DNA of 64,000 nt. It comes from Acidobacteriota bacterium (GTDB lineage: Bacteria; Acidobacteriota; Terriglobia; Acidiferrales; UBA7541). Shown one piece after another: positions 20,360 through 49,692 of the stretch (position 1 is the first letter of the stretch; each line of letters opens with the position of its first letter). A program made the translations under genes and the position numbers. A model generated the notes under the pieces. The model did not search any database and was not told the origin of the DNA. It saw only the letters and a program-made list of their open reading frames with translations. Location: assembly GCA_003224085.1 (NCBI GenBank), contig QHYK01000064.1, forward strand, positions 1 to 64,000, written 5' to 3'.

Positions 20360-21289
20360 TTAACTTTCCGGGATTTGCAGCGGGCTCGTCAAGGCGTGGC
20401 GAGCAAGTTCCGCCGCGGATTCGGCAACTGGCCGAGGGAGCGGGCCAGGGCGGGCGTTAGGGACTGTTTTCCTCAGCAGAAGGTCGAATTGCTCATTGAG
20501 AAAGGCACTGCCGTCGAAGACTCCTCCTGTTTTTGCGAGGAAGAATTTCGTGTTGTGCATTTGGAGTTGGTCGACCACTTCACGGACCTGCTCTATCAGA
20601 TTCACTGCGGCCATTGACAGGACAGCTCGGGCCGCCATGTCGCCTGATTCGGCGGCGTTCGCAACCATGGGAAATATTTTGGGAAAGATGACCGTGGGCT
20701 GCGCGCGCACGTGATCGACGAACTGGCTCCAGGTGCAATCAAAGGTGCGGAGGATTTCATCCGCCAGTGGGAACTTCTCATTGTTCAAGAATTTCTGAAA
20801 ACAACGCGCCACGGCTTTTCGGCCGATGTCATTGGCGCTCCCGGGGTCACCGATGATTGGGCCAAATCCGCCAGCGCGAGCCAGCTTGAGCGGCGAAGTT
20901 CTGCCTAAGACGGCTGAGCCGGTACCGGCTATGACGACGACGCTTGGAATCTTACCCGTCGCACCCAAAGTCAGAATCAAATCGCTGGTGACCAGAATCG
21001 TGGCATTAGGAAAACTGGGTTTAAGCTTTTCTTGAACGTCCCATCGGGCACGGGGTTCGCCTGCGCCTGAAAGGCCCACGAGGATACAGGCGACATCGGA
21101 AGGTGGCCTTGCGACGGAACGAAGCGCTTCCAAGCCGGCCTCCGCAAGTGCCGCGGCGGCAGCTTCTGCGCCAACGTTGACAACATTGGAGGCGCCAGAG
21201 CGGGAACGCGCGAGAATCGCTCCGGTTTCGTCCATAAGGACGCACTCGGTTTTTGTGCCGCCGCCGTCAAAGCCAAGGACATAGCGCAT
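20360..21289 (-). CDS. BadF/BadG/BcrA/BcrD-type ATPase, GlcNAc kinase-like
   Basis: A 309-residue member of the actin-like ATPase superfamily, closest in layout to N-acetylglucosamine kinases. The phosphate-1 loop is YVLGFDGGGTKTECVLMD (residues about 3-20). The adenosine side contains VVVIAGTGSAVLG (about 117-129), the sugar-side loop is FGPIIGDPGSANDIG (about 142-156), and the C-terminal half has LAKTGGVFDGSAF. It likely phosphorylates an amino sugar in the cytoplasm, which would feed the amino-sugar recycling genes further right. That link is inferred, since the genes are 17 kb apart. A TATGCT box 6 nt upstream of the ATG suggests a leaderless transcript. Confidence 0.8.
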   Translation of the reverse strand: MRYVLGFDGGGTKTECVLMDETGAILARSRSGASNVVNVGAEAAAAALAEAGLEALRSVARPPSDVACILVGLSGAGEPRARWDVQEKLKPSFPNATILVTSDLILTLGATGKIPSVVVIAGTGSAVLGRTSPLKLARAGGFGPIIGDPGSANDIGRKAVARCFQKFLNNEKFPLADEILRTFDCTWSQFVDHVRAQPTVIFPKIFPMVANAAESGDMAARAVLSMAAVNLIEQVREVVDQLQMHNTKFFLAKTGGVFDGSAFLNEQFDLLLRKTVPNARPGPLPRPVAESAAELARHALTSPLQIPES

Positions 21290-21618: not shown

Positions 21619-21960
21619 ATGGACAAACAGATGGACCTGCTGCAGGGAACGTTGGACATGCTGATTCTGAAAGCCGTCTCGCTCGGCCCGCTGCACGGCT
21701 ACGGCATTTTGCTGCGGATCCAGCAGATTTCGAAAGACCGGCTGGAGATTCAGCAGGGCTCGCTGTATCCGGCGCTGTATCGGCTGGAGCATCAGGGCTG
21801 GATCGCCAGCGAATGGGGCGAATCCGAGAATAAGCGCAAAGCGAAATATTACCGGCTTACGGCAGCGGGTAAGCGCAAATTGCAAACCGAAGCGGAAAAG
21901 TGGAACCGCATGGCGGACGTGATTGCAGGGGTCTTGCGAAGCACGCCAGAGGAAGTGTGA
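21619..21960 (+). CDS. PadR family transcriptional regulator
   Basis: 113 residues with the PadR winged helix: LLQGTLDMLILKAVSLGPLH, GYGILLRIQQISKDRLEI, the recognition helix and wing QQGSLYPALYRLEHQGWIAS and KRKAKYYRLTAAGKRKL. These regulators usually repress the adjacent efflux or permease genes and release DNA on ligand binding. The stop is 2 bp before the first of three tandem ADOP permeases, which are its probable targets. A ribosome-binding site (GGAGAG) precedes the ATG. Confidence 0.93.
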   Translation: MDKQMDLLQGTLDMLILKAVSLGPLHGYGILLRIQQISKDRLEIQQGSLYPALYRLEHQGWIASEWGESENKRKAKYYRLTAAGKRKLQTEAEKWNRMADVIAGVLRSTPEEV

Positions 21961-21962
21961 GG

Positions 21963-24590: not shown

Positions 24591-24652
24591 GAAAGTTCGT
24601 GAACGACGTTTGCTGATTCTTGAAGATGGGTGTTTGTCGAGGTGAAGGAAGG

Positions 24653-27457: not shown

Positions 27458-27497
27458 AGTCTTTCGCGCGGATTTTGCAGGGCACTTGTGAGGAACT

Positions 27498-30155
27498 ATG
27501 ACTCTTTGGAGCCGAATTCGTTTGTGGTTGCGGGCGCTTCTGAAGCGGTCGCGAATGGAAAGCGATATGGACGCGGAGCTGCGCTTCCACATCGAGGCGT
27601 TCGCGGAGGATTTGGCGCGCAAGGGCGTGCCGCGCGAAGAGGCGATGCGGCGGGCGCGGATCGAGTTTGGCGGCCTCGAGCGCGCCAAGGAAGAATGCCG
27701 CGACGCCCGCGGCTTGAATTTCCTAGACAGCCTCGTCCAGGACTTGCGCTTCGGTCTGCGCATGCTGGGCAAGTCGCCGCGCTTTACCGCCATCGTCGTT
27801 TTCACTCTAGCTCTCGGAACCGGCGCGACCACGGCCGTCTTCAGCATTGTGGATGCCGTATTGTTGCGCCCGCTTCCCTACAAAGGCGGTGAGCGCCTGG
27901 TAGCGGTGTGGTGCACCGAACTCGGCCAATCCGGCTCGAAGATCTTTGCGCCGTATCGTGATTTTGAAGAATTCAAAGCCGAGAGTCACGGTTTTGAAGA
28001 GTTGGCGGCGGCGACTTGGGCCAGGGCCGGCGAGATTCTTTCCTGGCGCGGTTCGCCACATGAGGTTCTAAGCATTCCCGCAAGCGGCGAATTCTTTTCC
28101 TTGCTGGGAATTCCTGCCGCGCAAGGCCGCACCTTCGGTCCTGAAGACGCACGCAATGGATGCACCGTTGTCTTAGCGGATTTGTTTTGGAGGAACGAAC
28201 TGGGCGCAGCGCCCGACATCGTCGGCGGCCCGCTAACATTGAACGGGCAGCCCTGCACCGTCGTCGGAGTGATGCCCCGCGAATTCCAGTTTTATCCGAA
28301 GCAAACTTCCCTGTGGACACTGATCACCCGTAACAGCCAGTTAACGGACAAGCCGTTCGATTCGGCCGTGGGGATTTTTGGCCGGCTCAAACCCGGCGTC
28401 ACTACCGCCAGGGCGGAAAAAGAACTCCTAGAGCTTCACAAGCGGGTGGTCAAGGATTCGCCCGCCGGAAGTTGGGTAGAAGGAATTGCGCCCATCGTGC
28501 GCGATTTGCGCGAGGAGTTTACGTGGCTGGCCGGCCGCAACCTGCACACGGCGCTGCTCGTTCTCTTGACGGCAGTCGGCCTGGTCCTGCTGATTGCCTG
28601 CCTCAACGTCGCCAACCTGTTATTAAGCCGCTCCGTGGAAAGAGAAAGGGAGTTGGCAGTGCGCGCCGCACTTGGCTCAGGTCGTTTGCGCTTGCTAAGG
28701 CAATTGCTCGTGGAGAGCATCCTGCTCGCTTCTCTGGGGACGATGGCTGGAGTTGTAATCGCGGTTGGAGCGGTGCGTTACCTCAGTTCCACAAAGCTTG
28801 TAGAGCTTCCACCGGGTAATCCGGTCACAGTAAATCTCCACGTGCTGGGCTTCACAATCTTTCTCGCGACGCTGACGGGGCTGCTCTTCGGGTTGGCACC
28901 AGGTTGGCAAGCCTTGCAAATCGACTTGAACGAAGTCCTGAAACGCTCAGGACGAACTAGCACTTGGAAAGGCCATCGAGCGAGCAAATTCTTGGTAATA
29001 AGTCAGGTAGCGCTCTCGATGGTTCTGCTCGCAGGGGCTGGACTGCTGATTGAAAGCGTCTATCGAATGGGGGCGGTGCCGCTCGGCTTTCAACCCAGCC
29101 ATGTCTTGACCGCTCAACTAGCTCTCGCTCCCAGCGCTTATACCGATCTGAGCCGGCGCTCCAGTTTTTACGAGCGGCTCGTCGCCAGGTTGGACGCTCT
29201 CCCCGGGATTGAACGAGCGGCGCTGTCCTCCGGGCTGCTGGGATTTGAAGGCGGCGGTTCCAGTAGGCTCTCGCTTGCGGGAAGAGCCGCCATAGAAAAC
29301 CTGGAAGCCGTCAGGACACAGCAGATTAGCAGCGGCTATTATCGCGTGCTGAGCATCCCTTTGTTGCAAGGCCGCCAGTTCGATTCGCGGGACCGCGAAG
29401 ACAGCCAGCCCGTGGCCATCGTGAACCAGCAGCTGGTTCATAGATATTTTCCGAAGGAAAATCCCATCGGGCGGCAGATCAAGCTTGGCAAGCCTGAGGA
29501 CAAGGCTCCTTGGCTGACCATTGTCGGCGTTGTCGGCAATGAAAAGCGCGCTACGGTCTACAAGGAGATGGATTATGAAGAACCGGCGATTGTTTATTTG
29601 CCGCTCCAGCAATCCTCTCCCCTGTCGATGCTGCTGGTGATGCGGGCAACAGGCAATCCTCTCGGGCTGAGTCCTTTACTCCAGGGGGAGGTATCACAAA
29701 TTGATCGCAACGTCCCCGTGTATGGCATCGAAACCATGATTCAGCGCGACTCCGAATTGCTGGCGCACCCGCGCTTCCGGGCAATAATGATGGGAGTTTT
29801 CGCCGCACTGACCTTGCTTCTAGCCGAAATCGGCGTCTACAGCGTTCTTGCGCAGTCCGTGGCACACCGCACGCAGGAGATTGGCGTGCGTTTGGCGCTC
29901 GGTGCACAATCGGCAGATGTTTCCAGGTTGGTCCTGCGCCAAGGCATGGGCATGGTCGCCATCGGTCTTATCGCGGGTTTGTTGGCGGCGTTGGGGCTGA
30001 CTCGATTCCTCTCGGCAATGCTTTACGGCGTTAGAGCAACCGATCCCCTCTCTTTTTCTGCGGTCGTCCTCGTTTTGATGTCGGTGGCTTTCCTAGCTTG
30101 CTATATTCCCGCACGGCGGGCGATGCGGGTCGATCCCATCGTGGCGCTGCGGTAG
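27498..30155 (+). CDS. ADOP family ABC permease, copy 3
   Basis: 885 residues. The prefix domain ([36 protein letters not shown]) again resembles copies 1 and 2, and the first helix region reads [20 protein letters not shown]. FtsX repeats include [20 protein letters not shown] and the end [15 protein letters not shown]. It follows copy 2 by 40 bp with GAGGAACT before the ATG. The three copies probably form one transcript with padR. What they move, or whether they act as mechanotransmission modules with a distant ATPase, is not shown by the sequence. Confidence 0.88.
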
Positions 30156-32493: not shown

Positions 32494-33957
32494 ATGCGCG
32501 TTCATCCGCTGGACCTGACGATTGTCGTCGCCTACTTGCTCGGCGTGACTGCACTTGGCATGCGCTTCCGACGCATGCAGCAGGCTGGCGCGGCGGCAGA
32601 TTCGCAAGCCGCTGGCCGCGAATATTTCCTTGGAGGGCGTACCGCACCGTGGTGGGCGCTGGCATTTTCGATCGTTGCCACGGAAACATCGACTCTCACG
32701 ATCATCGGCGCACCCGCGATTTCTTACGCGGATAATCTGACGTTCATTCAATTGGTCTTCGGCTATCTTCTCGGGCGCGTGTTGATCGTGTTGTTCTTAC
32801 TGCCCGGCTACTTTCGCGGAGAATTTCTTACCGCATACGCGCTCATCGAAAAACGCTTTGGCGAGAAAATGCGCGCCGTAGCAGCTACTACGTTTCTCAT
32901 CACGCGTGCCATCGCCGAAGGCGTGCGCGTTTCCGCCATCGCTCTAGTCGTGAGCGTCGTGCTTGGCACATCGGAACGCCTCGCGGTCATGATGGTCATT
33001 TCGCTGACCATACTCTACACATTCGAAGGCGGCATGAAAGCGGTGATCTGGACCGACGTGGCTCAGCTTCTTGTCTACATGACCGGCAGCGCGATTACGC
33101 TCCTCGTGCTGTTCCATCGCATTCCCGGCGGCTGGAGCGAAGTCACACAAGTCGCGGCCGCAGCCGGCCATAAACTTCAGTTCCTCAATTTTTCCTGGAA
33201 CCTCGGGACGAAATACACGTTTTGGTCCGGCGTGATCGGCGGCTCGTTCCTCACCATGGCGACTCACGGCACGGACCAGACCATCGTGCAGCGTTTGCTC
33301 GCCGCGAAAAGTGAACGCGACAGCAGCCGCGCTCTGCTCACCAGTGGCGGAATCGTTCTCGTTCAGTTCACCGTTTTCTTGTTGATTGGCGTGCTGCTCT
33401 TCGTGTTTGCGCAACATTCGCCACTACTTGCCCCTGGCGATAGAGCTGATCGCATCCTCCCGCTCTTTCTAGTGCGCGAGATGCCCGTCGGCCTCGCAGG
33501 TTTGCTTCTCGCTTCCATCATGGCCGTGGCCATGTCCAACGCCAGCGGCTCGCTCAACTCGCTGGCCGCTTCGAGCGTGTTGGATTTTGCAAAGCTTCGC
33601 GGACGCAGCACGGACGCGCGCCAATTCCTGCGCGTGTCTCGCGGCATGACGTTGGCGTGGGGCCTCGTGTTGATGGGTTTCGGATTCGTCAAATGGGGGC
33701 CGCTGCTCGAGACAGGACTAACCGTGGCCTCGCTTCCCTTTGGCAGCTTGCTGGGATTGTTTCTTCTCGGCACGTTCGATCGCGCCGCCAACGCGCGCGG
33801 CGCATTCGTCGGAATGTTCGCTGGACTTGTCGTCGTCTTGAGCGTATTTCAGTTCACCAAAGCGGCGTATACGTGGTATTTCCTTATCGGCGCGTGCGTG
33901 ACTTTCTTCGTGGGATCGCTCGTGAGCCGCATGGCGCGCAAGGAGAGTCCGCTTTGA
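32494..33957 (+). CDS. Sodium:solute symporter (SSS family)
   Basis: 487 residues with about 13 membrane helices. SSS landmarks are FLGGRTAPWWALAFSIVATE (helix 1 and the conserved loop, residues about 48-67), ETSTLTIIGAPAISY, GRVLIVLFLLPGYFRGEFLT, GGMKAVIWTDVAQLLVYMTG (the SSS signature area) and GTDQTIVQRLLAA. It imports a small organic solute with Na+; the solute is unknown. A perfect TATAAT ends 9 nt before the ATG and no ribosome-binding site is visible, so the mRNA is probably leaderless. The next gene is another permease 128 bp downstream. Confidence 0.92.
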   Translation: MRVHPLDLTIVVAYLLGVTALGMRFRRMQQAGAAADSQAAGREYFLGGRTAPWWALAFSIVATETSTLTIIGAPAISYADNLTFIQLVFGYLLGRVLIVLFLLPGYFRGEFLTAYALIEKRFGEKMRAVAATTFLITRAIAEGVRVSAIALVVSVVLGTSERLAVMMVISLTILYTFEGGMKAVIWTDVAQLLVYMTGSAITLLVLFHRIPGGWSEVTQVAAAAGHKLQFLNFSWNLGTKYTFWSGVIGGSFLTMATHGTDQTIVQRLLAAKSERDSSRALLTSGGIVLVQFTVFLLIGVLLFVFAQHSPLLAPGDRADRILPLFLVREMPVGLAGLLLASIMAVAMSNASGSLNSLAASSVLDFAKLRGRSTDARQFLRVSRGMTLAWGLVLMGFGFVKWGPLLETGLTVASLPFGSLLGLFLLGTFDRAANARGAFVGMFAGLVVVLSVFQFTKAAYTWYFLIGACVTFFVGSLVSRMARKESPL

Positions 33958-38485: not shown

Positions 38486-39730
38486 CTACTTGTAGAGAAA
38501 ATACTTGCGGCGCACTTGATCGAAGACCTTAAGCGCGTCCGACCAGCCGGCAACGATTTGCTCCGGCGGAACGCCATTTTGGATTTGCTGGACGGTATCC
38601 CAATTTCCGACAAGAACGACAAGTTTGCCGGTGTCAAAATCCTGGGGATAGAGCTTTTGAAGAATCTCCGCGATTTCCAGGCCCATTCGCATGGAACGCA
38701 CCACGAAACGATCCGTAATCCGGATCGCCACGCCATTACAACGCTGGCCGCTGCGGGGCCCGCCGATGGGAATAAAGGATTTCGATTCAAAACGCAGGCC
38801 CGGAAGATGGCGCTCATTCAGTGCGGCGGCAACTTCGTCGCCCTTCATCCAAGGCGCGCCAAACACTTCGAACGGGGCCTCGGTGCCACGCCCGACGGAG
38901 ACTCCGGAATCCTGCAGAATCTCAATGCCCGGATAGAGAATCGAGCCTTTCGTGGTGCGCAACGCCGGCGAGGGAGGAATCCACTTGATGCCCGTGCTTT
39001 CAAAGAAATAATTGCGATGCCAGTTCTTCATAGCGATGACGTGCAGGTCGGCCCCGATGTGATTTTCCGCATTGAAAAACTGAGCAAGCTCACCAATGGT
39101 CAGCCCATACCGCACGGGCACCGGATAATAGGCGACGAAACTGGTCTTATCCGGATCAAGCATGGGGCCTTCGATGATTTCTCCACCCAGGGGATTCGGG
39201 CGATCCAACACGAAAAACGAAATTTTGCGTTTCGCTGCTACTTCCATGCAATACGCCATGGTCACCGTGTAGGTGTAGAAGCGCACACCCGCATCCTGAA
39301 TGTCGAAGACCAGCGCGTCGATGCCTTGGAGCATTGCGTCGGTGGGGCGGCGCGTGTCGCCGTACAAGCTGTAGAGAGGCAGTCCGGTCGAAGGATCTTT
39401 GGACGAGGCCACGTTGTCGTTGTTGCGTCCGGCGAGGCCATGCTCGGGACTGAAGAGCGCCACCAACTGCAAGCCCAACGCGTGCGAGAGAAGGTCGATG
39501 TTGCTGCGGCCTTGCGCGTCCAGCCCCGTGTGATTCGTAATTAGTCCAATATGCTTGCCGCGTAGCAGCGTGAACTTCTCCGCTTCGAGAACATCGAGAC
39601 CCGTCTGCACGCGAGCAGCGTGTCCGGAATGCTTCTGCGGCAAACGCGCGTGCAGCGCAACGGGAGCAAAAATTGCAACGAACAACGTCAATGGAGCAAG
39701 TGTGGCAAGCACGCGCTTCGTATCGGTCAA
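38486..39730 (-). CDS. namZ: Exo-beta-N-acetylmuramidase NamZ (DUF1343)
   Basis: 414 residues. DUF1343 enzymes (NamZ in Bacillus subtilis, formerly YbbC) release MurNAc from the non-reducing end of peptidoglycan fragments outside the cytoplasm. Family landmarks are KHIGLITNHTGLDAQGRSNI, VALFSPEHGLAGRNNDNVAS, the core ALVFDIQDAGVRFYTYTVTM, FFVLDRPNPLGGEIIEGPML and PNPLGG. A signal peptide (TKRVLATLAPLTLFVAIFAP, residues about 4-23) fits export. I start at TTG 39730 because a perfect AGGAGG lies 6 nt upstream; the ATG at 39802 has none and would precede the signal with a foreign tail. It is divergent from the NagZ-AmiE-like fusion, sharing a 130-bp control region. Confidence 0.9.
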   Translation of the reverse strand: MTDTKRVLATLAPLTLFVAIFAPVALHARLPQKHSGHAARVQTGLDVLEAEKFTLLRGKHIGLITNHTGLDAQGRSNIDLLSHALGLQLVALFSPEHGLAGRNNDNVASSKDPSTGLPLYSLYGDTRRPTDAMLQGIDALVFDIQDAGVRFYTYTVTMAYCMEVAAKRKISFFVLDRPNPLGGEIIEGPMLDPDKTSFVAYYPVPVRYGLTIGELAQFFNAENHIGADLHVIAMKNWHRNYFFESTGIKWIPPSPALRTTKGSILYPGIEILQDSGVSVGRGTEAPFEVFGAPWMKGDEVAAALNERHLPGLRFESKSFIPIGGPRSGQRCNGVAIRITDRFVVRSMRMGLEIAEILQKLYPQDFDTGKLVVLVGNWDTVQQIQNGVPPEQIVAGWSDALKVFDQVRRKYFLYK

Positions 39731-39860
39731 ATCGTTCCTCCTGCGCAAAAACAATACAATGATATTCTGGAACGCGCTGGCCCCGGCTGCATTGGAGAGC
39801 ACGGTGTGCTTGTGCTATGAATAAATGCAGACTGCGGGCTGCGCCGGGGGATTGTAACTG

Positions 39861-42827
39861 ATGGAAGGACGCCGCGTCCGCTTTCTGCTCGTGATTCCCT
39901 TCTTATTTCTCATCCTTATGGCCCAAAAAGCACGCAGCCAAAACGACAATCCATCCGAGAAAAAATCCGTTGCGCAAAACAGCGGAGCCACGGCCAAGGG
40001 CAGCGCGAAGAATCTTTCGCCGGCGGCGAGCGCGTGGGTGGAATCCGCGCTGCGCAAAATGACCGTGGACGAAAAGATTGGCCAGCTCCTTTTCACCACG
40101 TATCACGGAAGTTTCACGTCCACCGATTCAGACGCCTATCAACAGCTTTTGCATGATGTGCAGGCTTTGCATGTCGGCGGATTTATCGTCATCACGCACG
40201 GTTCGCCGCTGGGAATCGTGAAGAGTCAGGCGTATCCGACGGCTCTGCTGGCCAATCAGTTACAGTCGAAATCCAAATTGCCGCTGCTCATTGGCGCGGA
40301 TTTCGAACGCGGAACCGCCATGCGCTACGACGAAGGAACGTCGTTTCCGACCGCCATGGCGGTCGCGGCCGGCGGCAATCCCAAAGACGCGTACACGATG
40401 GGAAAAATCACCGCTTTGGAGGCGCGCGCCACGGGCGTGCAATGGGTTTACGCGCCGGATTCGGACGTGAACAACAATCCCGGAAATCCCATCATAAACA
40501 CGCGCTCCTTCGGCGAGAATCCCTATCGCGTGGCGGAATTTGTTTCCGCGTTCGTAAAAGGCGTCGAGGACAACGGCGCGCTCGCGACGGCCAAGCATTT
40601 TCCCGGACATGGCGATACGGCCGCGGATTCACATATTGATTTGCCGGTGATCCCCGCAAATCGCGAGAGGTTGGAACATTTGGAACTGGTTCCCTTTCGC
40701 GCAGCGATCTCTGTGGGCGTGGACAGCATCATGACCGGGCATCTTTCCGTTCCGGCAATCGAACCCGACCCCAACACGCCTGCAACTTTGTCGCATAACA
40801 TTCTCACCGGTTTGTTGCGAAATGAACTCGGATATCGTGGGCTGATCGTCACGGATGCAATGGAGATGGGCGGCATTACCGTGCGTTACGCGCCCGGAGA
40901 AGCGGCCGTGCGTGCGGTGGCCGCCGGCGCGGATTGCGTGTTGATGCCGCCGGTGCCGGATGCGGCGTTCGAAGCTTTGCAAGCCGCGGTAAAGTCCGGG
41001 CGAATTTCGAAGGAGCGGCTGGATGAATCGGTGCGGCGCATTCTGGAGGTCAAAGCGCGGCTGGGGCTGAACAAAAATCGGCTGGTGGACGCGAACGCGC
41101 TGAATCACAAGTTCGGCAGCGCGGCCTGGCAAAAAGAAGCGCAGGAAATCTCCGATCGCGGCGTGACCCTGCTGCGCGACACGCCTCATCGTTTGCCGCT
41201 CGACGGAACGAAGCCATCGCGAGCGCTGCTGCTCTCATTCTATGCAGACCCCGAGCCGTATCCTGGAGAGGACCTTGAACGCGAATTGCGCGCGCGATTC
41301 GATTCGGTGACCACTCTTCGCGCGGACACAAGATTCGTGAATGCTAGCATCCTGAAGCTGCCGCCGCCCGATTCCTACGACCTCGCGATTCTCGCGCTGT
41401 TTGTGCGCGTGAGCGACCGTAAAGGAAACGTGGACCTACCGGCGGAACAAGCGGCGCTGGCGGAACAACTTTACAAAACGGGCAAGCCGGTGATTACGGT
41501 GGGATTGGGGAGTCCGTACCTGATTGAGAGATTTCCGCAGGCAGAGACGTGGCTCGCGGCGTTTGGCATCAGCGACGTCGCGCAAATTTCCGTGGGGCGA
41601 GCGCTTTTTGGGGAAATTCCCGTGCGCGGACACTTGCCGGTGACGGTGCCGGGCGCCAACTTGAAAGCAGGATTTGGCATCGAAGTGCCAGCCAATCCGA
41701 TGACGGTGCAGCCGATGGACGCGCGCGAAGATTCGCAATTGCGGCCAGCGTATGAAGTCATCGAGAAAGCCGTAAAGGACAAGGCGTTTCCCGGAGCGAC
41801 ACTCGCCGTAGGATTCCGAGGAAAAGTTGCGATTCACGCGTTCGGGAAACTGAGCTACGACGCGAAATCGCCGGCAGTCAAGCCGACTACGATGTACGAC
41901 ATCGCATCGCTAACGAAAGTCGTGGCGACGACACCGCTGGTGGCGAAATTGGTCGAAGGCGACTTCGCCGTGCCGCTGGATTTGGATGCGAAGATCGAGC
42001 GCTACTTACCGGAGTGGGCTAGGGGACCACAACCGGAATGGCGGCATCGCGTGACGGTGCGGCATTTGCTGACGCACACCTCGGGTTTGCCTCCGTTCAA
42101 GGAATACTGGCGCACCTCGAAGAGCAAGCAAGACACATTGAAACAAATTTTCGCGGAGCCGCTCGAATACGAACCGGGAATGAAGGAAGTGTATTCGGAC
42201 CTGGGAATTATTTTGATGGCGGAAATTATCGGGCGATTGACGGGAAAAAAGCTGGATGACTTAGCGAAGAGTTTTATTTTTTCGACGCTGGGAATGAAAG
42301 ACTCGATGTACCGGCCGCCGAAGAAACTTTGGCCGACGATCGCGCCGACAGAAATCGACAACCATTACCGGCACCGGCTGATCCAGGGCGAGGTGCACGA
42401 CGAAAATGCGTTTGCGATTGGCGGCGTGTCAGGACACGCGGGAGTGTTCAGTACCGCCCCCGACTTGGCCGCGTTTTGTCAGATGCTGTTGAACGGCGGC
42501 GTGTACGCGCATCAGCGAATTTTGCGGCGTGCGACGGTGGCGCAGTTCACTACGCCGCAGCAGCTTTCCGGGGGAACGCGCACGCTAGGCTGGGCCCTGG
42601 CGACACCGGGCGGATTGAGCGGACATTATTTTTCAGAGCATAGTTTCGGGCACACCGGGTTCACGGGGACTTCCATCTGGATCGATCCGGAGCGGCAACT
42701 GTTTGTCGTGTTCCTGACGAACCGCGTTCATCCGACGCGGGAGAATCAGAAGATTCAACAAGTGCGAAGGGACCTGCATGACGCGGTGATGCAGGCCCTC
42801 GGATTCGCGACTACCGCAGTGCACTGA
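39861..42827 (+). CDS. NagZ-type GH3 N-acetylglucosaminidase fused to AmiE-like serine hydrolase
   Basis: 988 residues, secreted (signal LLVIPFLFLILMAQKARS, about 9-26). The GH3 domain (about 50-620) has ADFERGTAMRYDEGTSFPTA, the His/Asp general acid-base dyad of NagZ in KHFPGHGDTAADSH (Lys244 onward) and the nucleophile Asp332 in VTDAMEMGGIT. The C-terminal domain (about 640-988) is a beta-lactamase-fold hydrolase with SxxK at Ser683-Lys686 (IASLTKVVAT), LTHTSGLPPF and YSDLGIILMAEIIG. In B. subtilis separate proteins NagZ and AmiE (an amidase of this fold) work beside NamZ. Here both are fused and namZ is the divergent neighbour. Cleavage of the MurNAc-peptide bond by the second domain is inferred from that parallel. 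Confidence 0.88.
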   Translation: MEGRRVRFLLVIPFLFLILMAQKARSQNDNPSEKKSVAQNSGATAKGSAKNLSPAASAWVESALRKMTVDEKIGQLLFTTYHGSFTSTDSDAYQQLLHDVQALHVGGFIVITHGSPLGIVKSQAYPTALLANQLQSKSKLPLLIGADFERGTAMRYDEGTSFPTAMAVAAGGNPKDAYTMGKITALEARATGVQWVYAPDSDVNNNPGNPIINTRSFGENPYRVAEFVSAFVKGVEDNGALATAKHFPGHGDTAADSHIDLPVIPANRERLEHLELVPFRAAISVGVDSIMTGHLSVPAIEPDPNTPATLSHNILTGLLRNELGYRGLIVTDAMEMGGITVRYAPGEAAVRAVAAGADCVLMPPVPDAAFEALQAAVKSGRISKERLDESVRRILEVKARLGLNKNRLVDANALNHKFGSAAWQKEAQEISDRGVTLLRDTPHRLPLDGTKPSRALLLSFYADPEPYPGEDLERELRARFDSVTTLRADTRFVNASILKLPPPDSYDLAILALFVRVSDRKGNVDLPAEQAALAEQLYKTGKPVITVGLGSPYLIERFPQAETWLAAFGISDVAQISVGRALFGEIPVRGHLPVTVPGANLKAGFGIEVPANPMTVQPMDAREDSQLRPAYEVIEKAVKDKAFPGATLAVGFRGKVAIHAFGKLSYDAKSPAVKPTTMYDIASLTKVVATTPLVAKLVEGDFAVPLDLDAKIERYLPEWARGPQPEWRHRVTVRHLLTHTSGLPPFKEYWRTSKSKQDTLKQIFAEPLEYEPGMKEVYSDLGIILMAEIIGRLTGKKLDDLAKSFIFSTLGMKDSMYRPPKKLWPTIAPTEIDNHYRHRLIQGEVHDENAFAIGGVSGHAGVFSTAPDLAAFCQMLLNGGVYAHQRILRRATVAQFTTPQQLSGGTRTLGWALATPGGLSGHYFSEHSFGHTGFTGTSIWIDPERQLFVVFLTNRVHPTRENQKIQQVRRDLHDAVMQALGFATTAVH

Positions 42828-42889
42828 ACCGGTTGCAGGTTATAGGTTCCGCGTCTGCCCGAGCAAAGCCGGGGCGTAAAAGGCTTCCT

Positions 42890-43417
42890 TCAGCGAGCCG
42901 CATTGTTCGCGGGCTCCTTGAGCAAGTTTTGGATTTCGCGCTCGAAGGCTGCTTTGTCGACCATGCCAACGTGCAAGTCGGCGATTTTGCCGGTGCGATC
43001 GATGAGCAGGGTTACCGGCATTCCTTTGTCTACCCCTAATGGCTTTGCCGATTCAAACGTTCCCATCACGATGCGGTAGTTGATCTTGTGCTCGCGCAGG
43101 TAGGGCGTGACGGATTTCCAGCCGTCATCGTCCAGGGAAGCGCCAACAACGGTCAGGCCCGTCTTGTTGTATTTGTCCTGAAATTCCATAAACCAAGGGA
43201 TTTCTTGCTTACAGCCCTCGCACCAAGTGGCCCAGAAATCGAGCAGTACAACGCGGCCTTTGTAGGCGGAGAGCTTAACCGCTGTGCCTTCCGAGTCAGT
43301 GAGAGCGACTTCTGGAAGGGGCTTTCGGGAGCCGGCGGGCGTGAGATCTGGCACGGTTGCGCGTAGTGCCAAGCATGAGATTGTCAGGACTACGAAAGCG
43401 ATGATGGAGTGTTTCAT
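42890..43417 (-). CDS. TlpA-like periplasmic thioredoxin
   Basis: 175 residues: a signal peptide (MKHSIIAFVVLTISCLALRA), then a redoxin domain with KLSAYKGRVVLLDFWATWCE, the active site WCEGCK, GLTVVGASLDDDGW and the cis-proline region KGMPVTLLIDRTGKI. It likely reduces disulfides outside the cytoplasm, for example in cytochrome c maturation or other secreted proteins. AGGAGG stands 8 nt before the ATG at 43417 and only 2 nt before an ATG at 43423, so I use 43417. Confidence 0.9.
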   Translation of the reverse strand: MKHSIIAFVVLTISCLALRATVPDLTPAGSRKPLPEVALTDSEGTAVKLSAYKGRVVLLDFWATWCEGCKQEIPWFMEFQDKYNKTGLTVVGASLDDDGWKSVTPYLREHKINYRIVMGTFESAKPLGVDKGMPVTLLIDRTGKIADLHVGMVDKAAFEREIQNLLKEPANNAAR

Positions 43418-43434
43418 GAGCATGACCTCCTGAA

Positions 43435-43579
43435 TTAGGGCGTGGGGTGCTGACGTAAGGAAACGGAACGAATGGTTCGGATGAGAATGCCGCCCACGAG
43501 AATCGCCATCCAATTCTCAAGAGCTGCACTGACCAAATCGACTAGCCAAGCCGCGAGGTGGGCGAGGATGTGGCGTCAT
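43435..43579 (-). pseudogene. Remnant of a PadR-associated small membrane protein
   Basis: An ATG overlapping the padR stop (ATGA) opens MTPHPRPPRGLA and stops after 20 codons. The neighbouring frame continues with AAWLVDLVSAALENWMAILV, GGILIRTIRSVSLRQHP, stop. Together they resemble a PadR-linked membrane protein start (MxxHPRPPR...LLERF) followed by a single helix, joined by a frameshift and a large loss. The assignment rests on pattern memory and is weak. Confidence 0.3.
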
Positions 43580-43908
43580 GAGTGGCTCCTGAGAAGATCG
43601 AGACCTTCGGTCAGGCTCCGGAGGGCGCCATGCGTGCGATGGACTGCCGAAACTCCTTGCGTCGTAACGCGGAAGAAGCGCTTCGATCGACCACCTCGTT
43701 CCGGCGTCGGGTCCCCGGAGCGGGATTGCAGGTAACCTTTTGCTTCCAGACGATCAAGAGTGGTGTACATGGCACCGATCGAAACCTCTCGCTTGGTGCG
43801 GGCTTCCATCTCGCGCCGGACGGTAACGCCATAGGCTTCATCGCCCAGACGCAGAACCGCGAGAAGCACCATGTGCTCGAATTCGCCGAGGTAGCCGCGA
43901 TCCGCCAT
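43576..43908 (-). CDS. PadR family transcriptional regulator, third copy
   Basis: 110 residues: GYLGEFEHMVLLAVLRLGDE, AYGVTVRREMEARTKREVS, IGAMYTTLDRLEAKGYLQSR and a basic wing, ERGGRSKRFFRVTTQGVSAV. This is the subgroup of PadR that often precedes a small permease-prefix or ADOP gene; here the partner seems decayed. The longer frame to 44052 runs into the murU-like gene in another frame and is rejected. TATATT ends 9 nt before the ATG at 43908 and no Shine-Dalgarno is seen, so the mRNA may be leaderless. Confidence 0.88.
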   Translation of the reverse strand: MADRGYLGEFEHMVLLAVLRLGDEAYGVTVRREMEARTKREVSIGAMYTTLDRLEAKGYLQSRSGDPTPERGGRSKRFFRVTTQGVSAVHRTHGALRSLTEGLDLLRSHS

Positions 43909-43917
43909 TAGTCCTAC

Positions 43918-43944
43918 AATATAGAGGAAATTAGCCTGGGTCAA
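43918..43944 (-). promoter_or_regulatory. Promoter of the third padR gene
   Basis: Minus strand: TTGACC (43944-43939), 15 bp, TATATT (43923-43918). The -35 box overlaps the last codons of the murU-like gene. Confidence 0.45.
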
Positions 43945-44905
43945 GACAAAAGGCGCCTTGATGGAGGTCGCGGGAGGCTTGGGAGAGGTCGGAGGGGCGG
44001 CCGAGGTCGCGCCAGTAGTATTCGTCGGCGCGGAAGGCGAGGATTTTTTCACCCCGGGCGGCGAGCCGAAGACAAGCGTCGACGATGGAGAAGACGCCGG
44101 TCTCAGTGAGCATGGGAAGGAGGCGAGGGGAGATGATGTGGATGCCGGAGAAGGCGAGAGGAAGTGGCGAGTGGCGAGTAGCGAGCGGCGAGTGGGAAGA
44201 AGAAGATTCGGAATGTGAAGTGAGATTTCTCGCTTCGTTCGATATGACGGTGTTGCCTTTTGTTTCGAGAGGGGGTGAGACCGGGCCAGGATCTCTCACT
44301 TCGTTCGGGATGACAAAAGAGGGGATTTCCGCGGGCTCCGAGGCAGTGGGTGATGGATTGGGCGCCGCCGAAGTCGCAGGAGCATAGGCAGGCGTGCCTG
44401 TGCCACTGGCGCGGCCGACGAGTTGGAGTTGGTCGTTGAAGAGGAGCAGGCGGGAGGAGGCGCGGGATTGGACGGCAAGGGTGGCGAGGGCGTCGCGTTC
44501 GTTGTGGAATTGGAGCATGCGGTGAAAGTCGATGTTGCTGAGGACGTCGACGTTGTGGAGGAGGAAGGGCTCCGAGTGGCGAGTGGCGAGTGGCGAGTGG
44601 CGAGCATTTTCCAGGAAAAACCAGGAGGCTTTTTTCAGGCCGCCGCCGGTGTCGAGCAGAAGATCCTCTTCGCGGGAAATTTCGATGTGCATGCCGAAAT
44701 TGTTGCTGGATTTCAGGTAGTCGACGACCGCGTCCGCGAAGTGATGGACGTTGATGATGACTTCGTTGATACCAAAAGAGCGAAGGCGTGCGAGCGTGAT
44801 TTCGAGCAGCGTGCGGCCATTGATTTCGACGAGGGCTTTGGGACGTGTGTCGGTGAGCGGGCGCAGGCGCGTGCCGAGGCCGGCGGCGAGGATCATTGCC
44901 TTCAT
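43931..44905 (-). CDS. MurU-like sugar-1-phosphate nucleotidyltransferase, with repeat inserts
   Basis: 324 residues. The nucleotidyltransferase signature is MILAAGLGTRLRPLTDTRPK (residues 4-23), followed by ALVEINGRTLLEITLARLRS, INEVIINVHHFADAVVDYL, the lost-and-found PFLLHNVDVLSNIDFHRML and the C-terminal EYYWRDLGRPSDL, as in MurU (MurNAc-1-P uridylyltransferase). Paired with an AmgK-like kinase 40 bp upstream, it would make UDP-MurNAc from MurNAc. Two in-frame inserts are foreign: ARHSPLATRHSE at about residues 100-111, and roughly 80 residues in the middle (GTGTPAYAPATSAAP ... SFVIPNEVRDPGP ... NTVISNEARNL ... SHSPLATRHSPL) encoded by heptamer and REP-like repeats. Core strands appear intact, so activity is plausible but untested. 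Confidence 0.8.
   Translation of the reverse strand: MKAMILAAGLGTRLRPLTDTRPKALVEINGRTLLEITLARLRSFGINEVIINVHHFADAVVDYLKSSNNFGMHIEISREEDLLLDTGGGLKKASWFFLENARHSPLATRHSEPFLLHNVDVLSNIDFHRMLQFHNERDALATLAVQSRASSRLLLFNDQLQLVGRASGTGTPAYAPATSAAPNPSPTASEPAEIPSFVIPNEVRDPGPVSPPLETKGNTVISNEARNLTSHSESSSSHSPLATRHSPLPLAFSGIHIISPRLLPMLTETGVFSIVDACLRLAARGEKILAFRADEYYWRDLGRPSDLSQASRDLHQGAFCLDPG
44165..44199. repeat. TGGCGAG-type heptamer array inside the murU-like gene
   Basis: Five tandem units: TGGCGAG, TGGCGAG, TAGCGAG, CGGCGAG, TGGGAAG. Read on the coding (minus) strand they give the heptapeptide-like SPLATRHSPL. Confidence 0.85.
44221..44312. repeat. Two REP-like units inside the murU-like gene
   Basis: Coding-strand sequences GTCATATCGAACGAAGCGAG (about 44249-44230) and GTCATCCCGAACGAAGTGAG (about 44312-44293) are two copies of a widespread bacterial repeat. 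They encode VISNEARNL and VIPNEVRDP. Confidence 0.75.
44577..44604. repeat. Perfect TGGCGAG x4 inside the murU-like gene
   Basis: Four exact TGGCGAG units, coding for RHSPLATRHS on the minus strand, placed just before the PFLLHNVD strand. Confidence 0.9.
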
Positions 44906-44916
44906 ACGAGAGCCAG

Positions 44917-44937
44917 CGGCGAGTGGCGGGTGGCGAG
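44917..44937. repeat. TGGCGAG-type heptamers in the amgK-murU gap
   Basis: CGGCGAG, TGGCGGG, TGGCGAG in the 40-bp gap between the kinase stop and the murU-like start. Confidence 0.8.
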
Positions 44938-44945
44938 TGATCCGG

Positions 44946-46409
44946 TCATTTGGCGAGATTACCCACCACGGCGTGCAACATGCCCAGCTTTTCGAGTTCG
45001 AGGTGGCGGATGCCGACTTCAACGCCGCTGCGGCCGCGCAAATGTTTTGCGAGTTGTTCGGCGAGATAGACGGAGCGGTGCTGGCCGCCGGTGCAGCCGA
45101 AGCTCACCATTAGATTCTTGAAACCGCGGTGTTGAAAATTGTCGACGGTCGCGTCGATGAGAGTAAACACGCTGGCCAGATACTGGTGGACGCGCTCCTG
45201 CTGATTGAGGTAGTCGATGACCGGCGGGTCCTGGCCAGTAAGCGATTTGAAGCGCTCTTCCCTGCCGGGATTCGGGAGGCCGCGGCCGTCGAAGACAAAC
45301 CCGCCGCCGTTGCCGGCCTCGTCCTTGGGCAACTCGTGATGAAACGAAAAGCTGAAAATGCGGACAACGAGATTGTCGGCTTCGAAAGCGATGCTTTGGA
45401 GTTTTTCCGAAGCGAGCATGCTTTGAAACGCGCCGAGAAGCGTGGGCAGTGCGATGGGCAATTGCACGTTGTGGAGCAGCCAGCGGATGTTTTTCAGGGC
45501 GTAGGGGACGCTTTGCAGGAAATGCACTTTGCGTTCGAAAAAGCCGCGATAGCCGTAGGCGCCAAGTGCCTGCATGATGCGGACGTAAACGAAGCCGTAG
45601 TAGTAGCGCAGGAAGGCTTCGCGGTCGAGGTCGATGAAGGTCGAGAGCGCATTGAGATAGTGATCGAGAAGCCGCTGGCGAAGATCGGGCGGGAGGTCGG
45701 CCTTGGCGTCGAAGAGAAGCGAGGCGATGTCGTACTGCAAGGCGCCTTTGCGGCCGCCTTGATAGTCAACGAAATAGGGCAGGCCGCCGCGCAGCATGAT
45801 GTTGCGCGACTGAAAATCGCGATAGAGGAAATAATCGGGCGGGGCCCCAAGGAGGAAATCGGTGAGGCGGTCGAAATCGGTTTCCAGGGCGCGTTCGTTA
45901 AAGGGAATGCCGGCGAGCCTCAGAAAATAGTATTTGCAGTAGTTCAAGTCCCAGGTGATGGACTGCCGATCGAAGCTGGCAATGGGATAACAGAAGCTGT
46001 AGTCGAAGTCGCGCGCGGCTTCGACTTGGAAGCGCGGGAGGACGCCGACGGATTTGCGGTAGGCATCGACAACGGCGGGAGCGATATCGTCGCCGGAGCG
46101 ATTCCTGGAGAGAAATTCGAACAGCGAGGTGTCGCCGAGATCTTCCTCTAGATAGGCGCCATGGTCGAGGTCCTGGGCATAGATTTCCGGCACGGGCAGG
46201 AGGTGCCGGCGAAAATGTTTGGAGAACTCGAGGAAGGCGACGTTTTCTTCACGGCCGTTGTAGAGAACGCCGACCGCGCTCACGCGATCGTTGGCGAGGC
46301 GGATGATTTTTCGGCCGGAGCCGCCCAGTTCCCCTTGCAATGGCTGAATGTGCGTAGGAGCAGCGTGGAAGTGCTGTTGGAAAAGTTCTTTGAGAACGTC
46401 TAGGGACAT
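44946..46409 (-). CDS. AmgK-like sugar kinase fused to RapZ C-terminal domain
   Basis: 487 residues in two domains. The N-terminal part (1-300) is an aminoglycoside-phosphotransferase-fold kinase like AmgK (anomeric MurNAc/GlcNAc kinase), with the catalytic loop YFLYRDFQSRNIMLRGG and the metal-binding VDYQGGRKGALQYDIASLL. The C-terminal part (about 325-487) is the RapZ C-domain: IFSFSFHHELPKD, FVFDGRGLPNPG, LTGQDPPVIDYL and the hallmark VSFGCTGGQHRSVYLAEQLA. In E. coli this domain binds glucosamine-6-phosphate. The RapZ kinase domain with its P-loop is replaced. The start at 46409 follows GAAGGGAATCT. The next gene is the MurU-like partner, supporting a MurNAc-to-UDP-MurNAc route; regulation of the kinase by GlcN6P is an inference. 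Confidence 0.85.
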   Translation of the reverse strand: MSLDVLKELFQQHFHAAPTHIQPLQGELGGSGRKIIRLANDRVSAVGVLYNGREENVAFLEFSKHFRRHLLPVPEIYAQDLDHGAYLEEDLGDTSLFEFLSRNRSGDDIAPAVVDAYRKSVGVLPRFQVEAARDFDYSFCYPIASFDRQSITWDLNYCKYYFLRLAGIPFNERALETDFDRLTDFLLGAPPDYFLYRDFQSRNIMLRGGLPYFVDYQGGRKGALQYDIASLLFDAKADLPPDLRQRLLDHYLNALSTFIDLDREAFLRYYYGFVYVRIMQALGAYGYRGFFERKVHFLQSVPYALKNIRWLLHNVQLPIALPTLLGAFQSMLASEKLQSIAFEADNLVVRIFSFSFHHELPKDEAGNGGGFVFDGRGLPNPGREERFKSLTGQDPPVIDYLNQQERVHQYLASVFTLIDATVDNFQHRGFKNLMVSFGCTGGQHRSVYLAEQLAKHLRGRSGVEVGIRHLELEKLGMLHAVVGNLAK

Positions 46410-46557
46410 AGATTCCCTTCCACCTGTCCTGAGAGATGGATCCGGCCGGGTGGTCTTAGCATAGCCCATTCTGGAACAGGACGCCCGGCAAGCGGGAACG
46501 GTTGTGCCCAGAATTACAGATTCAGGGTTCAAGGCCAAGTATTTTGAGGCGCCTCGC

Positions 46558-46563
46558 TATAAT
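46558..46563 (+). promoter_or_regulatory. -10 box placed for a leaderless murQ transcript
   Basis: A perfect TATAAT ends 6 nt before the murQ ATG, so transcription should begin at or next to the start codon. No ribosome-binding site is present. Confidence 0.65.
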
Positions 46564-46569
46564 GTGAGC

Positions 46570-47487
46570 ATGCCCAAGTCCTTCAGAAGTTCTATTCCGA
46601 AAGAATCTCGACTGACCGAACAAAGGAACAAAGCTTCACGGAATCTCGACCGCATGACGGCGCGCGAGATTGTGGAGTTGATGAACCGCGAAGACCGCAA
46701 AGTGGCGGTTGCGGTGGGAAGGGAAATTCCAGCAATTGCTCGGGCGGTGGACGCGATTGTCGCGGGGATTCGCAAAGGCGGCCGGCTAATTTACGCGGGA
46801 GCTGGTTCGAGCGGACGCATGGCGGTGTTAGACGCGGCAGAGTGCCAGCCGACGTTTGGGACTCCGGCGAAGCTGGTTCAGGCGGTAATCGCGGGAGGAG
46901 AGCGCGCCATCACGCAGGCGGTGGAAGGCGCGGAAGACGACGTTCGCCATGCGGCGCGCGAATTGCGCAAGAGGAGGCTGACGCGGCACGACGTGGTGGT
47001 TGGAGTGACGGCGAGTGGGACGACGCCGTACGTGCTGGCGGCGCTGCGATACGCACGAGGGCGAGGGGCGACGACGGTAGCGATTACGTCAAACCGGAAA
47101 ATGCCGGTGGCGCGGGTGGCAAAAATTGTGATTGCGGTGGAAGTGGGGCCGGAGGTGTTGACAGGTTCGACGCGGATGAAAGCAGGGACGGCGCAAAAGA
47201 TGGTGCTGAACATGCTCAGTACAGCGTCGATGGCGCGGCTTGGACATGTGTATGAAAACCTGATGATTGATGTCGTGCAGACCAATGAAAAGGTTGCGAA
47301 ACGAGTTTTGCGGATTCTGGCGGAAGCGAGCGGGAAGAGTGTGTCTGCGGCGGAACACGCACTGCGGGCGGCGGGACACAATATGAGGGTGGCGCTGGTG
47401 ATGCTGAAGCTGGGAGTGGGGGCGCGGGAGGCGAAGAACAGACTGAAGGGGGCGGGAGGAGAATTGAGGCGCGCATTAAATGAGTAA
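46570..47487 (+). CDS. murQ: N-acetylmuramic acid 6-phosphate etherase MurQ
   Basis: 305 residues, close to the usual 300. MurQ cleaves the lactyl ether of MurNAc-6-P to give GlcNAc-6-P and D-lactate. It has the SIS-fold sugar-phosphate loops IYAGAGSSGRMAVLDAAECQ (about 76-95) and VGVTASGTTPYVLAALRYAR (about 140-159), TSNRKMPVARVAKIVIAVEV, STRMKAGTAQKMVLNMLSTA and the C-terminal helical AAGHNMRVALVMLKLGV. I start at the ATG at 46570, 6 nt after a TATAAT; an upstream in-frame GTG/ATG at 46504 would lie before the promoter. It is divergent from amgK-rapZ and followed by murA. Confidence 0.95.
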   Translation: MPKSFRSSIPKESRLTEQRNKASRNLDRMTAREIVELMNREDRKVAVAVGREIPAIARAVDAIVAGIRKGGRLIYAGAGSSGRMAVLDAAECQPTFGTPAKLVQAVIAGGERAITQAVEGAEDDVRHAARELRKRRLTRHDVVVGVTASGTTPYVLAALRYARGRGATTVAITSNRKMPVARVAKIVIAVEVGPEVLTGSTRMKAGTAQKMVLNMLSTASMARLGHVYENLMIDVVQTNEKVAKRVLRILAEASGKSVSAAEHALRAAGHNMRVALVMLKLGVGAREAKNRLKGAGGELRRALNE

Positions 47488-47600
47488 GAAAAAGAGTTAG
47501 CACGAGGACACTCCAGAAAACAGCGGGCACAGAGAAGAAAGGGCGCAAAAAGAAAAGACGGAAATAGACAGAAGCAGAGAGCGCGGAGAAAGAAAAAGAA

Positions 47601-47616
47601 CGGGTCTAAAGACCCG
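47601..47616. repeat. Short palindrome upstream of murA
   Basis: CGGGTCT-AA-AGACCCG, a 7-bp stem that could be a REP-type remnant. The purine-rich stretch before it (47490-47600) contains GGCACAGAG-like units, also found after the CADD-type gene. Confidence 0.5.
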
Positions 47617-47636
47617 CCACTACGAAGAGCACGACG

Positions 47637-48932
47637 ATGGATAAGTTTTTAATAAAAGGCGGGAAGGCGCTGCGGGGGAGCGTCCCTGTAAGCGGGGCCA
47701 AGAATTCGGCCCTGCCGGTGATGGCGGCGGCCTTGTTGACTGCTGACAAGGTGGTCGTTCGAAACGTTCCCAAGGTGCGCGATCTGGTTACGATGAGCAA
47801 GCTACTGGCGTTCATGGACGCGAAGGTTTCGGCGGGGACAGTGCCGGCGAGCGACTATGAGATTCAAGCGCCGAGGTTGAATCATGCGGAAGCGCCTTAC
47901 GAGCTGGTGAAGACGATGCGCGCGTCGATCCTGACACTCGGGCCGCTGATGGCGCGTGTAGGTGTGGCGCGAGTTTCGTTGCCGGGAGGTTGCGCGATCG
48001 GGGCGCGGCCGGTGGATCTGCATTTGAAGGCGCTGGAGCAGATGGGCGCGGAGATTGCGACGTCACACGGGTACATCGACGCGAAAGTGCATCGCAACGG
48101 TTCGCGGGGGCGGCGGCTAAAGGGCGCGCACATCGTGTTTGAGAAAATCACCGTGACGGGGACGGAAAATATTTTGATGGCGGCGGCGCTGGCGGAAGGG
48201 GAGACGGTGCTGGAAAACGCGGCGCGCGAGCCGGAAGTGACCGACCTGATCTTGATGCTTCGGAAAATGGGGGCGGAAATTTGCGGAGACGGCACTTCGA
48301 CGCTTCGGATTCGCGGCGTGAAAGAGCTGCACGGCACGGAACATACCGTAATTCCGGACCGGATCGAAGCGGGAACGTTTCTCGTGGCGGGAGCAATGAC
48401 TGACGGCGATTTGACGATTACGAATTGCCAACCGAAGCATCTGGGGGCGGTGATTGCGAAGTTACAACAGGCTGGGGTGCAGATCGAGATATCGGATGCG
48501 ACGACGGTTCGCGCGCGGGGCGCGAAAAAGTTAGCGGCAGCGGACGTGACCACGGAGGAGTATCCGGGATTCGCGACGGACATGCAAGCGCAATACATGG
48601 CGCTGGCTACCCAAGCGGAAGGTACGTCGGTGATTACGGAAACGATTTTTGAGAACCGCTACCTGCATGCAAGCGAGATGGTGCGCATGGGGGCGAATAT
48701 TTCGGTGAACGGACGGGAAGCGATTGTGCGCGGTCCCGCGCAGTTATCAGGGACGACTGTGCAAGCATCGGACTTGCGCGCGAGTGCGGGCCTGGTTCTG
48801 GCGGGTTTAGTGGCAACCGGTGAGACGCTCATCGATCGCGTGTATCACATTGATCGCGGGTACGAAGGGATCGTCGAGAAGCTGCGCGGCGTTGGAGCAC
48901 AGATCGAGCGCGTGCACAGTCCCGGCTCGTAA
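47637..48932 (+). CDS. murA: UDP-N-acetylglucosamine 1-carboxyvinyltransferase MurA
   Basis: 431 residues; the first committed step of peptidoglycan synthesis, transferring enolpyruvate from PEP to UDP-GlcNAc. The N-terminal KGGKALRGSVPVSGAKNSAL contains the catalytic-site Lys/Asn. The fosfomycin-target cysteine is present in LPGGCAIGARPVDLHLKAL (about residue 120). RIEAGTFLVAGAMTDGDLTI and the C-terminal DLRASAGLVLAGLVATGETL follow. It lies 150 bp after murQ on the same strand, joining a recycling gene to a de novo gene that uses the same sugar pool. Confidence 0.96.
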   Translation: MDKFLIKGGKALRGSVPVSGAKNSALPVMAAALLTADKVVVRNVPKVRDLVTMSKLLAFMDAKVSAGTVPASDYEIQAPRLNHAEAPYELVKTMRASILTLGPLMARVGVARVSLPGGCAIGARPVDLHLKALEQMGAEIATSHGYIDAKVHRNGSRGRRLKGAHIVFEKITVTGTENILMAAALAEGETVLENAAREPEVTDLILMLRKMGAEICGDGTSTLRIRGVKELHGTEHTVIPDRIEAGTFLVAGAMTDGDLTITNCQPKHLGAVIAKLQQAGVQIEISDATTVRARGAKKLAAADVTTEEYPGFATDMQAQYMALATQAEGTSVITETIFENRYLHASEMVRMGANISVNGREAIVRGPAQLSGTTVQASDLRASAGLVLAGLVATGETLIDRVYHIDRGYEGIVEKLRGVGAQIERVHSPGS

Positions 48933-49017
48933 CTTTCTTCTAGCAGCAAATGCTCCTTAGTTTTGATACAATCTGCCGCACATTTTTGACATGCGCCTCC
49001 GGAATGAGGAGAGGGTC

Positions 49018-49692
49018 ATGGCTAAGACGGAATTGGTGAGAAAGCTGGACGCGGCAATTGCCGGCAAGAATTTGCTGAAGCATCCGTTCTATCAGGATTG
49101 GCAGGCAGGGAAGCTGAGCCGTGAGGCGCTGCAACTGTACGCGACACAGTATTACAAACATGTGTCAGCGTTTCCCGGGCACCTGCGCGTGCTGGCAGCG
49201 CGGACCGAAGGGCCGCTGCAGAAATTGATCCAGGAAAACCTGGGGGAGGAAGAGAATCCGGCGGCGCCGCATCCAAAATTGTGGCGCGATTTTGCGGCCG
49301 CTGTTGGCGTCAGCGAAGATGACGTTACCTGCTGCCCCGCCCTGCCGGGAACGAAGAATGTGGTGCAAACTTTCCGGGAAATCTGCGGGGATCGAACGGT
49401 GGCAGAGGCCGTAGCGACGCTGTACGCCTACGAATCGCAAGTGCCCGAGATTGCGGCGATAAAGATGGAGGGACTGGCCAAGTTTTATGGCGTGAACACG
49501 CCGAAAGGATTGGCGTACTTCGCGGTGCACGAGGAGACGGACAAGCTACACCGGGCGGCATGGCGTGATTGGCTTGAAAAGCACGCCGAGGGGGACGAGG
49601 AGGAGATCGTCAGAACAACGAACGCGGCACTCGACGCGCTGTGGGGGGCTCTGGATGCGGTACATTGTGAAAATGCCGGGGTAAGGAAGTAA
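49018..49692 (+). CDS. CADD family (TenA/PqqC-like) putative folate-metabolism protein
   Basis: 224 residues, helical oxygenase-like fold related to PqqC and TenA. The metal-binding residues expected for CADD are in place: Glu and His in ENLGEEENPAAPHPKLW (about 70-86), Glu in AYESQVPEIAAIKM (about 143) and the H-x3-D-x2-H set in VHEETDKLHRAAW (about 173-185). CADD of Chlamydia makes p-aminobenzoate from its own tyrosine by a self-sacrificing reaction. The conserved tyrosines near LQLYATQYYKHV are the corresponding region. GAGGAGAGGG before the ATG at 49018 sets the start. folE and PTPS genes lie 5 kb away. Confidence 0.85.
   Translation: MAKTELVRKLDAAIAGKNLLKHPFYQDWQAGKLSREALQLYATQYYKHVSAFPGHLRVLAARTEGPLQKLIQENLGEEENPAAPHPKLWRDFAAAVGVSEDDVTCCPALPGTKNVVQTFREICGDRTVAEAVATLYAYESQVPEIAAIKMEGLAKFYGVNTPKGLAYFAVHEETDKLHRAAWRDWLEKHAEGDEEEIVRTTNAALDALWGALDAVHCENAGVRK

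Follow-up and report, generated by a model that had tools for sequence, protein, structure and literature searches.

Introduction

In Bacillus subtilis, salvage proceeds through NamZ, NagZ, AmiE and MurQ, with NamZ and NagZ acting as secreted enzymes. The MurQ-dependent recycling of this organism has been described previously (PMC5061867). Beta- and gammaproteobacteria are reported to possess either MurQ or the AmgK-MurU pair, and the AnmK-MupP-AmgK-MurU pathway of Pseudomonas, which is without MurQ, uses a kinase and a uridylyltransferase to bypass MurA (PMC5371407). Both branches are also known from a single organism, Tannerella forsythia, which has neither MurA nor MurB and is reported to send MurNAc down an AmgK/MurU and a MurK/MurQ branch (PMC7670621, PMC5790795). 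In this organism, MurQ, MurK and MurT belong to a cluster that is transcribed on its own (PMC7670621); its AmgK and MurU have served in E. coli as the positive control for labelling with MurNAc probes (PMC13041923).

Here, we consider a locus at positions 38486-48932 of one contig from a 6.8 Mb draft genome of a soil acidobacterium; by the window we mean the whole 64,000-nucleotide stretch that was analysed. As in B. subtilis, secreted NamZ and NagZ occur with MurQ, but the locus adds MurA and an anabolic pair, and neither the PTS transporter MurP nor MurR was seen in it. As in Pseudomonas, there is a kinase and uridylyltransferase pair that would bypass MurA, but here MurQ adjoins the pair and the kinase carries a RapZ domain. 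T. forsythia likewise holds both branches, and its AmgK homologue is the same fusion of a kinase to the RapZ C-terminal domain, the differences being its lack of MurA and MurB and the separation of its pair from the MurQ/MurK/MurT cluster. An initial annotation of this DNA had put forward two MurNAc routes in one locus as a combination of which it knew no earlier description; its account of the gene content is correct, but given the T. forsythia work (PMC7670621) the locus is a genus-level version of a known theme. The less expected part is the kinase-RapZ fusion itself, its spread over two phyla and the change in its pocket.

Gene content of the locus

All six genes named in the initial annotation were confirmed, in the place given for them, by Pfam and NCBIfam profiles. 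The gene list and the joint presence of both MurNAc routes stand, while the span, taken as a gene set, also encloses two unrelated genes. These features, together with two others from the window, are as follows.

20360..21289, minus strand: BadF/BadG kinase, candidate MurK (PF01869, 87 bits)
32494..33957, plus strand: sodium:solute symporter (PF00474, 137 bits; TIGR00813 over cut-off)
38486..39802, minus strand: NamZ, exo-beta-N-acetylmuramidase, probable signal peptide (PF07075, 275 bits; PF20732, 136 bits)
39861..42827, plus strand: secreted GH3 beta-N-acetylglucosaminidase (NagZ-like) fused to a serine beta-lactamase-fold domain (PF00933, 286 bits; PF00144, 213 bits)
42890-43513: TlpA-like gene, unrelated, inside the span
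43576-44052: PadR regulator gene, unrelated, inside the span
43931..44905, minus strand: MurU-like MurNAc-1-phosphate uridylyltransferase with repeat-derived loop insertions (PF00483, 87 bits; best PDB match 4y7t); likely start codon ATG 44905
44946..46409, minus strand: 487-aa fusion of an APH-fold sugar kinase (divergent AmgK) with a RapZ C-terminal domain (PF01636, 40 bits; PF22740, 116 bits); likely start codon ATG 46409
46570..47487, plus strand: MurQ, MurNAc-6-phosphate etherase, open frame from 46504 (TIGR00274, 363 bits)
47637..48932, plus strand: MurA, UDP-GlcNAc enolpyruvyl transferase (TIGR01072, 559 bits; GGC active-site cysteine motif)

NamZ is present as a single copy in the genome, with both domains over the gathering score, solved relatives in 4k05 and 4jja and a hydrophobic stretch at its N-terminus. 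The neighbouring fusion protein has KHFPGHG at residue 245 and a Ser-x-x-Lys motif (SLTK) at 683, and its best matches in the PDB are the GH3 beta-N-acetylglucosaminidase 6k5j together with YbbD/NagZ 3bmx and 4gyj; it falls under the NagZ cut-off of NF003740 (143 bits against 207), the GH3 domain and KHFPGHG being present all the same. MurQ passes the curated cut-off of TIGR00274 (363 bits against 302), and MurA passes that of TIGR01072. Since the kinase, the MurU-like protein and the GH3 part miss the cut-offs for AmgK, MurU and NagZ respectively, these three assignments require other evidence.

The degradative half of the pathway extends beyond the locus. Of 81 genomes, 69 have a MurQ over the cut-off and many of the others are incomplete; AnmK was found in 74. 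In the genome studied here AnmK and NagA both lie outside the window, NagA on contig C135, and the BadF/BadG kinase some 25 kb from MurQ has a MurNAc/GlcNAc kinase as its closest solved structure. This kinase falls under the NCBIfam NagK_SO3507 cut-off (79 bits against 370) and is a candidate MurK, possibly supplying MurNAc-6-P to MurQ. The initial annotation had overlooked this MurK-like kinase as well as AnmK and NagA, and it did not recognise the kinase-RapZ fusion as a two-phylum family with an altered pocket. Regarding uptake, the genome gave no match to the known MurNAc importers AmpG (TIGR00901) and MurT/DUF5009. The sodium:solute symporter is a candidate importer of the released sugars; such a gene occurs near NamZ in several genera, lying upstream of it in L045, L053, L066-L069, L071, L075, L077 and L079. 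The window also carries, at 21900-30155, a tandem array of three MacB/FtsX-type permeases, of which two belong to the ADOP family.

We read the locus, with a probability of about 0.7, as a MurNAc salvage hub at which the sugar meets two fates and the fused RapZ domain sets the activity of the kinase. Judging by their families, the secreted NamZ and NagZ/beta-lactamase proteins would free MurNAc and GlcNAc from peptidoglycan, and the MurNAc would then be taken up. For degradation it would be converted to MurNAc-6-P by AnmK or by the MurK-like kinase and passed to MurQ and NagA, whilst for reuse the kinase-RapZ fusion would phosphorylate it at C1 and MurU would produce UDP-MurNAc, bypassing MurA. 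Binding of a phosphorylated amino sugar by the RapZ domain would tune the kinase, so that whether MurNAc is degraded or reused would track the supply of precursor.

The fused RapZ domain

In E. coli, the C-terminal domain of RapZ binds GlcN6P with a KD of 10 nM (PMC7073468), and malonate or sulfate is bound in its pocket, which is made up of H190, T248, G249, H252 and R253 (PMC5737377). The fused domain shares 39% identity with this domain and its predicted structure superposes with an rmsd of 1.3 A (Z 19.8), retaining the fold and the GCTGG.HRS motif. The fusion differs from E. coli RapZ in that the APH kinase replaces the N-terminal P-loop domain and in having an extra GNGGG loop; consistent with the presence of the C-terminal domain only, it falls under the full-length RapZ cut-off of NF003828 (107 bits against 244). 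The pocket residues T248, G249 and R253 are kept in all 123 fusions compared and H252 in 122 of them. Position 190, on the other hand, is glycine in 123/123 fusions and histidine in 10/10 true RapZ proteins of the same bacterial family, and position 191 is always arginine or lysine in the fusions where the same ten RapZ proteins have phenylalanine. Loss of the RNA-binding tail was also considered as a hallmark of the fusion and was rejected, as true acidobacterial RapZ proteins also fail to retain the residues K270, R282 and K283 of the E. coli tail.

Given that His190 is replaced by glycine and its aromatic neighbour by a basic residue in every fusion, binding of GlcN6P should not be assumed. 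The substitutions suggest that the fused domain keeps the phosphate site but probably recognises a different ligand, or has some other role. A more specific proposal, which we make tentatively and at a little under even odds, is that Acidobacteriota and Bacteroidota possess a MurNAc-1-kinase gated by a fused, remodelled RapZ sensor whose ligand is a phosphorylated amino sugar distinct from GlcN6P, the exchange of His190 for glycine opening the pocket for, as an example, an N-acetyl or lactyl group. If this is the case, then direct allosteric regulation would govern reuse of the wall sugar, and would be the counterpart, at the level of protein, to the RapZ/GlmS RNA circuit of E. coli.

The same features could also be accommodated by a domain that is part of the enzyme rather than a sensor, delivering or shaping the substrate (muramyl or 6-phosphorylated sugars, for instance) or holding an oligomer together, with no regulation involved. 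The presence of the fusion in all complete loci of both phyla, the conservation of the phosphate-site motif and the altered position 190 are each compatible with such a role, and the C-terminal domain of E. coli RapZ does dimerise (PMC5737377). However, single-domain AmgK-like kinases occur in other Acidobacteriota, and in Legionella adjoining MurU, so a RapZ domain is not needed for catalysis in general, and we regard a purely structural or catalytic role as unlikely, though worth taking seriously. We favour a domain that sets kinase activity, and read the fusion as a putative MurNAc-1-kinase with a remodelled sugar-phosphate regulatory domain. Such a protein would offer a direct biochemical handle on how bacteria choose between burning and reusing their wall sugar.

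In the literature searched, RapZ and AmgK are not mentioned together and the kinase-RapZ fusion is not named, an absence which is not proof of novelty; the same search for RapZ with Bacteroides gave only a phage-resistance screen in E. coli.

Identity of the kinase and its partner

The labels "MurU-like" and "AmgK-like kinase fused to RapZ-C" given in the initial annotation hold at the level of domains, but neither protein reaches its curated cut-off. The kinase fusion scores 47 and 41 bits against the AmgK models NF045698/NF045759 (cut-offs 500/550), and its partner scores 116 bits against the 250 of the MurU model NF045761, which is nevertheless its best NCBIfam model and whose match spans the N-terminal half of the protein, ahead of a large loop insert. 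The case for these assignments comes from elsewhere. The predicted structure of the fusion (mean pLDDT 89) has its closest fold in 3csv, matched at Z 29.2 over 310 residues. The catalytic D198, N203 and D215 (the APH-fold Asp/Asn and the metal Asp) are invariant in 33 sequences, and the kinase motif YRDxQSRN...D is likewise invariant. In trees, a branch separates the fused kinases, which are cleanly split by phylum, from the single-domain AmgK-like kinases of other Acidobacteriota, and the MurU tree agrees with the same splits; these trees are quick searches with long outgroup branches and are relied upon only for the separation of fused from single-domain kinases and for the two-phylum split.

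T. forsythia provides an indirect link to published function. A search of its whole genome with the AmgK model returned a single match (20 bits), and this is a kinase-RapZ fusion, 44% identical to that of the window and adjoined by MurU. As the fusion is the only AmgK homologue found in the genome, the AmgK used in the published labelling is presumably, by elimination, the kinase-RapZ fusion. Taken together, the tree, fold, catalytic residues and T. forsythia support placing the pair as a divergent AmgK/MurU system, in line with the assignments of the initial annotation.

The pairing is equally consistent across the two phyla. Kinase and MurU share a strand in 122/122 loci from Acidobacteriota and Bacteroidota and are directly adjacent in 120 of these, with murU immediately downstream of the fusion. 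The fusion is widespread in Bacteroidota, including gut and mouth members, and is nearly always followed by murU, which was seen in 78 of the 80 loci fetched from this phylum. In the Parabacteroides and Bacteroides records the kinase is labelled 'RNase adapter RapZ' and its partner 'nucleotidyltransferase family protein'; the protein so labelled in the Bacteroidota records examined would be the entry enzyme for MurNAc reuse in a major gut phylum. The substitution at position 190 provides a simple rule for telling a fused from a true RapZ domain when such annotations are corrected, as well as a residue for testing.

It might be argued that the product of the pair is some other nucleotide sugar, with the kinase phosphorylating C1 of another sugar such as GlcNAc or a hexose and its partner forming a UDP or GDP sugar. 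The missed AmgK and MurU cut-offs would fit this, as would the resemblance of the nucleotidyltransferase to mannose-1-P guanylyltransferases as well. We consider it improbable, as the best matches of the nucleotidyltransferase are to MurU models and MurU structures, and both the elimination in T. forsythia and the genomic contexts point to MurNAc. These contexts include NamZ, NagZ and MurQ in the present locus and an AmpG-family muropeptide permease, which lies ahead of the pair in three genomes from a different acidobacterial genus. Two of the three permeases were scored and reach 455-464 bits against a cut-off of 350, and the remaining one is 75% identical.

Two further observations concern these proteins. 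The loops of MurU carry translated interspersed repeats (VIPNEVRDP, VISNEARNL, SPLATRHSPLPLA), and one loop is 95 aa long against about 30 in other genera. With L032-L050 as comparison, the inserts at this loop position differ between members of the genus, and genome-wide the repeat pattern has four matches, two of them inside the MurU gene. These repeats are reminiscent of the in-frame palindromic elements of Rickettsia. On pSymB of Sinorhizobium meliloti (L192:2347-3861), an AmgK-like kinase lies in one frame with TsaE, labelled only as TsaE and adjoined by a nucleotidyltransferase, representing a second and different AmgK-like fusion.

Conservation of the gene order

We compared 48 stretches from 43 related genomes, each spanning at most 20 kb around either the kinase or MurQ, onto which the window proteins were mapped. 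NagZ/beta-lactamase, MurQ and MurA follow one another in each of the 14 stretches centred on MurQ, which cover eight genera, with NamZ mostly ahead of them; this is so in genomes with the kinase as well as in those without it. NamZ-NagZ/beta-lactamase-MurQ-MurA is thus an older cluster of the same bacterial family that also exists without amgK and murU. Only the genus of the window has the murU-kinase pair placed between NagZ and MurQ, in 20 of its 22 loci; the exceptions are a contig that stops at the kinase (G077) and a locus in which MurQ is not seen (G067). Where the pair is missing within the genus (G005 and G018) NagZ directly adjoins MurQ, and in other genera the pair is located elsewhere, away from the cluster. 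Conservation among related Acidobacteriota, which the initial annotation had named as a check of its grouping, holds for the genus, and a six-gene locus common to the family is ruled out.

Since the cluster is the same with or without the pair, the locus appears to be a degradation cluster that either gained a reuse pair by insertion or had one that some members then lost; both gain and loss are compatible with the tree. The adjacency of the pair to MurQ may descend from one insertion and, being confined to one genus, is weak evidence for a functional switch. That an unrelated pair merely landed beside the degradation cluster, as its restriction to one genus, its position elsewhere in other genera and the TlpA and PadR genes sharing the gap might suggest, seems improbable given that 20 of 22 loci retain the order, with MurQ 61-85% identical and the intervening genes varying, and that the enzymes have a metabolite in common. 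Directly 3' of MurA in the window, at 48991-49692, lies a gene for a CADD-family protein, which many members of the genus keep close to MurA, at a distance of no more than a few kb.
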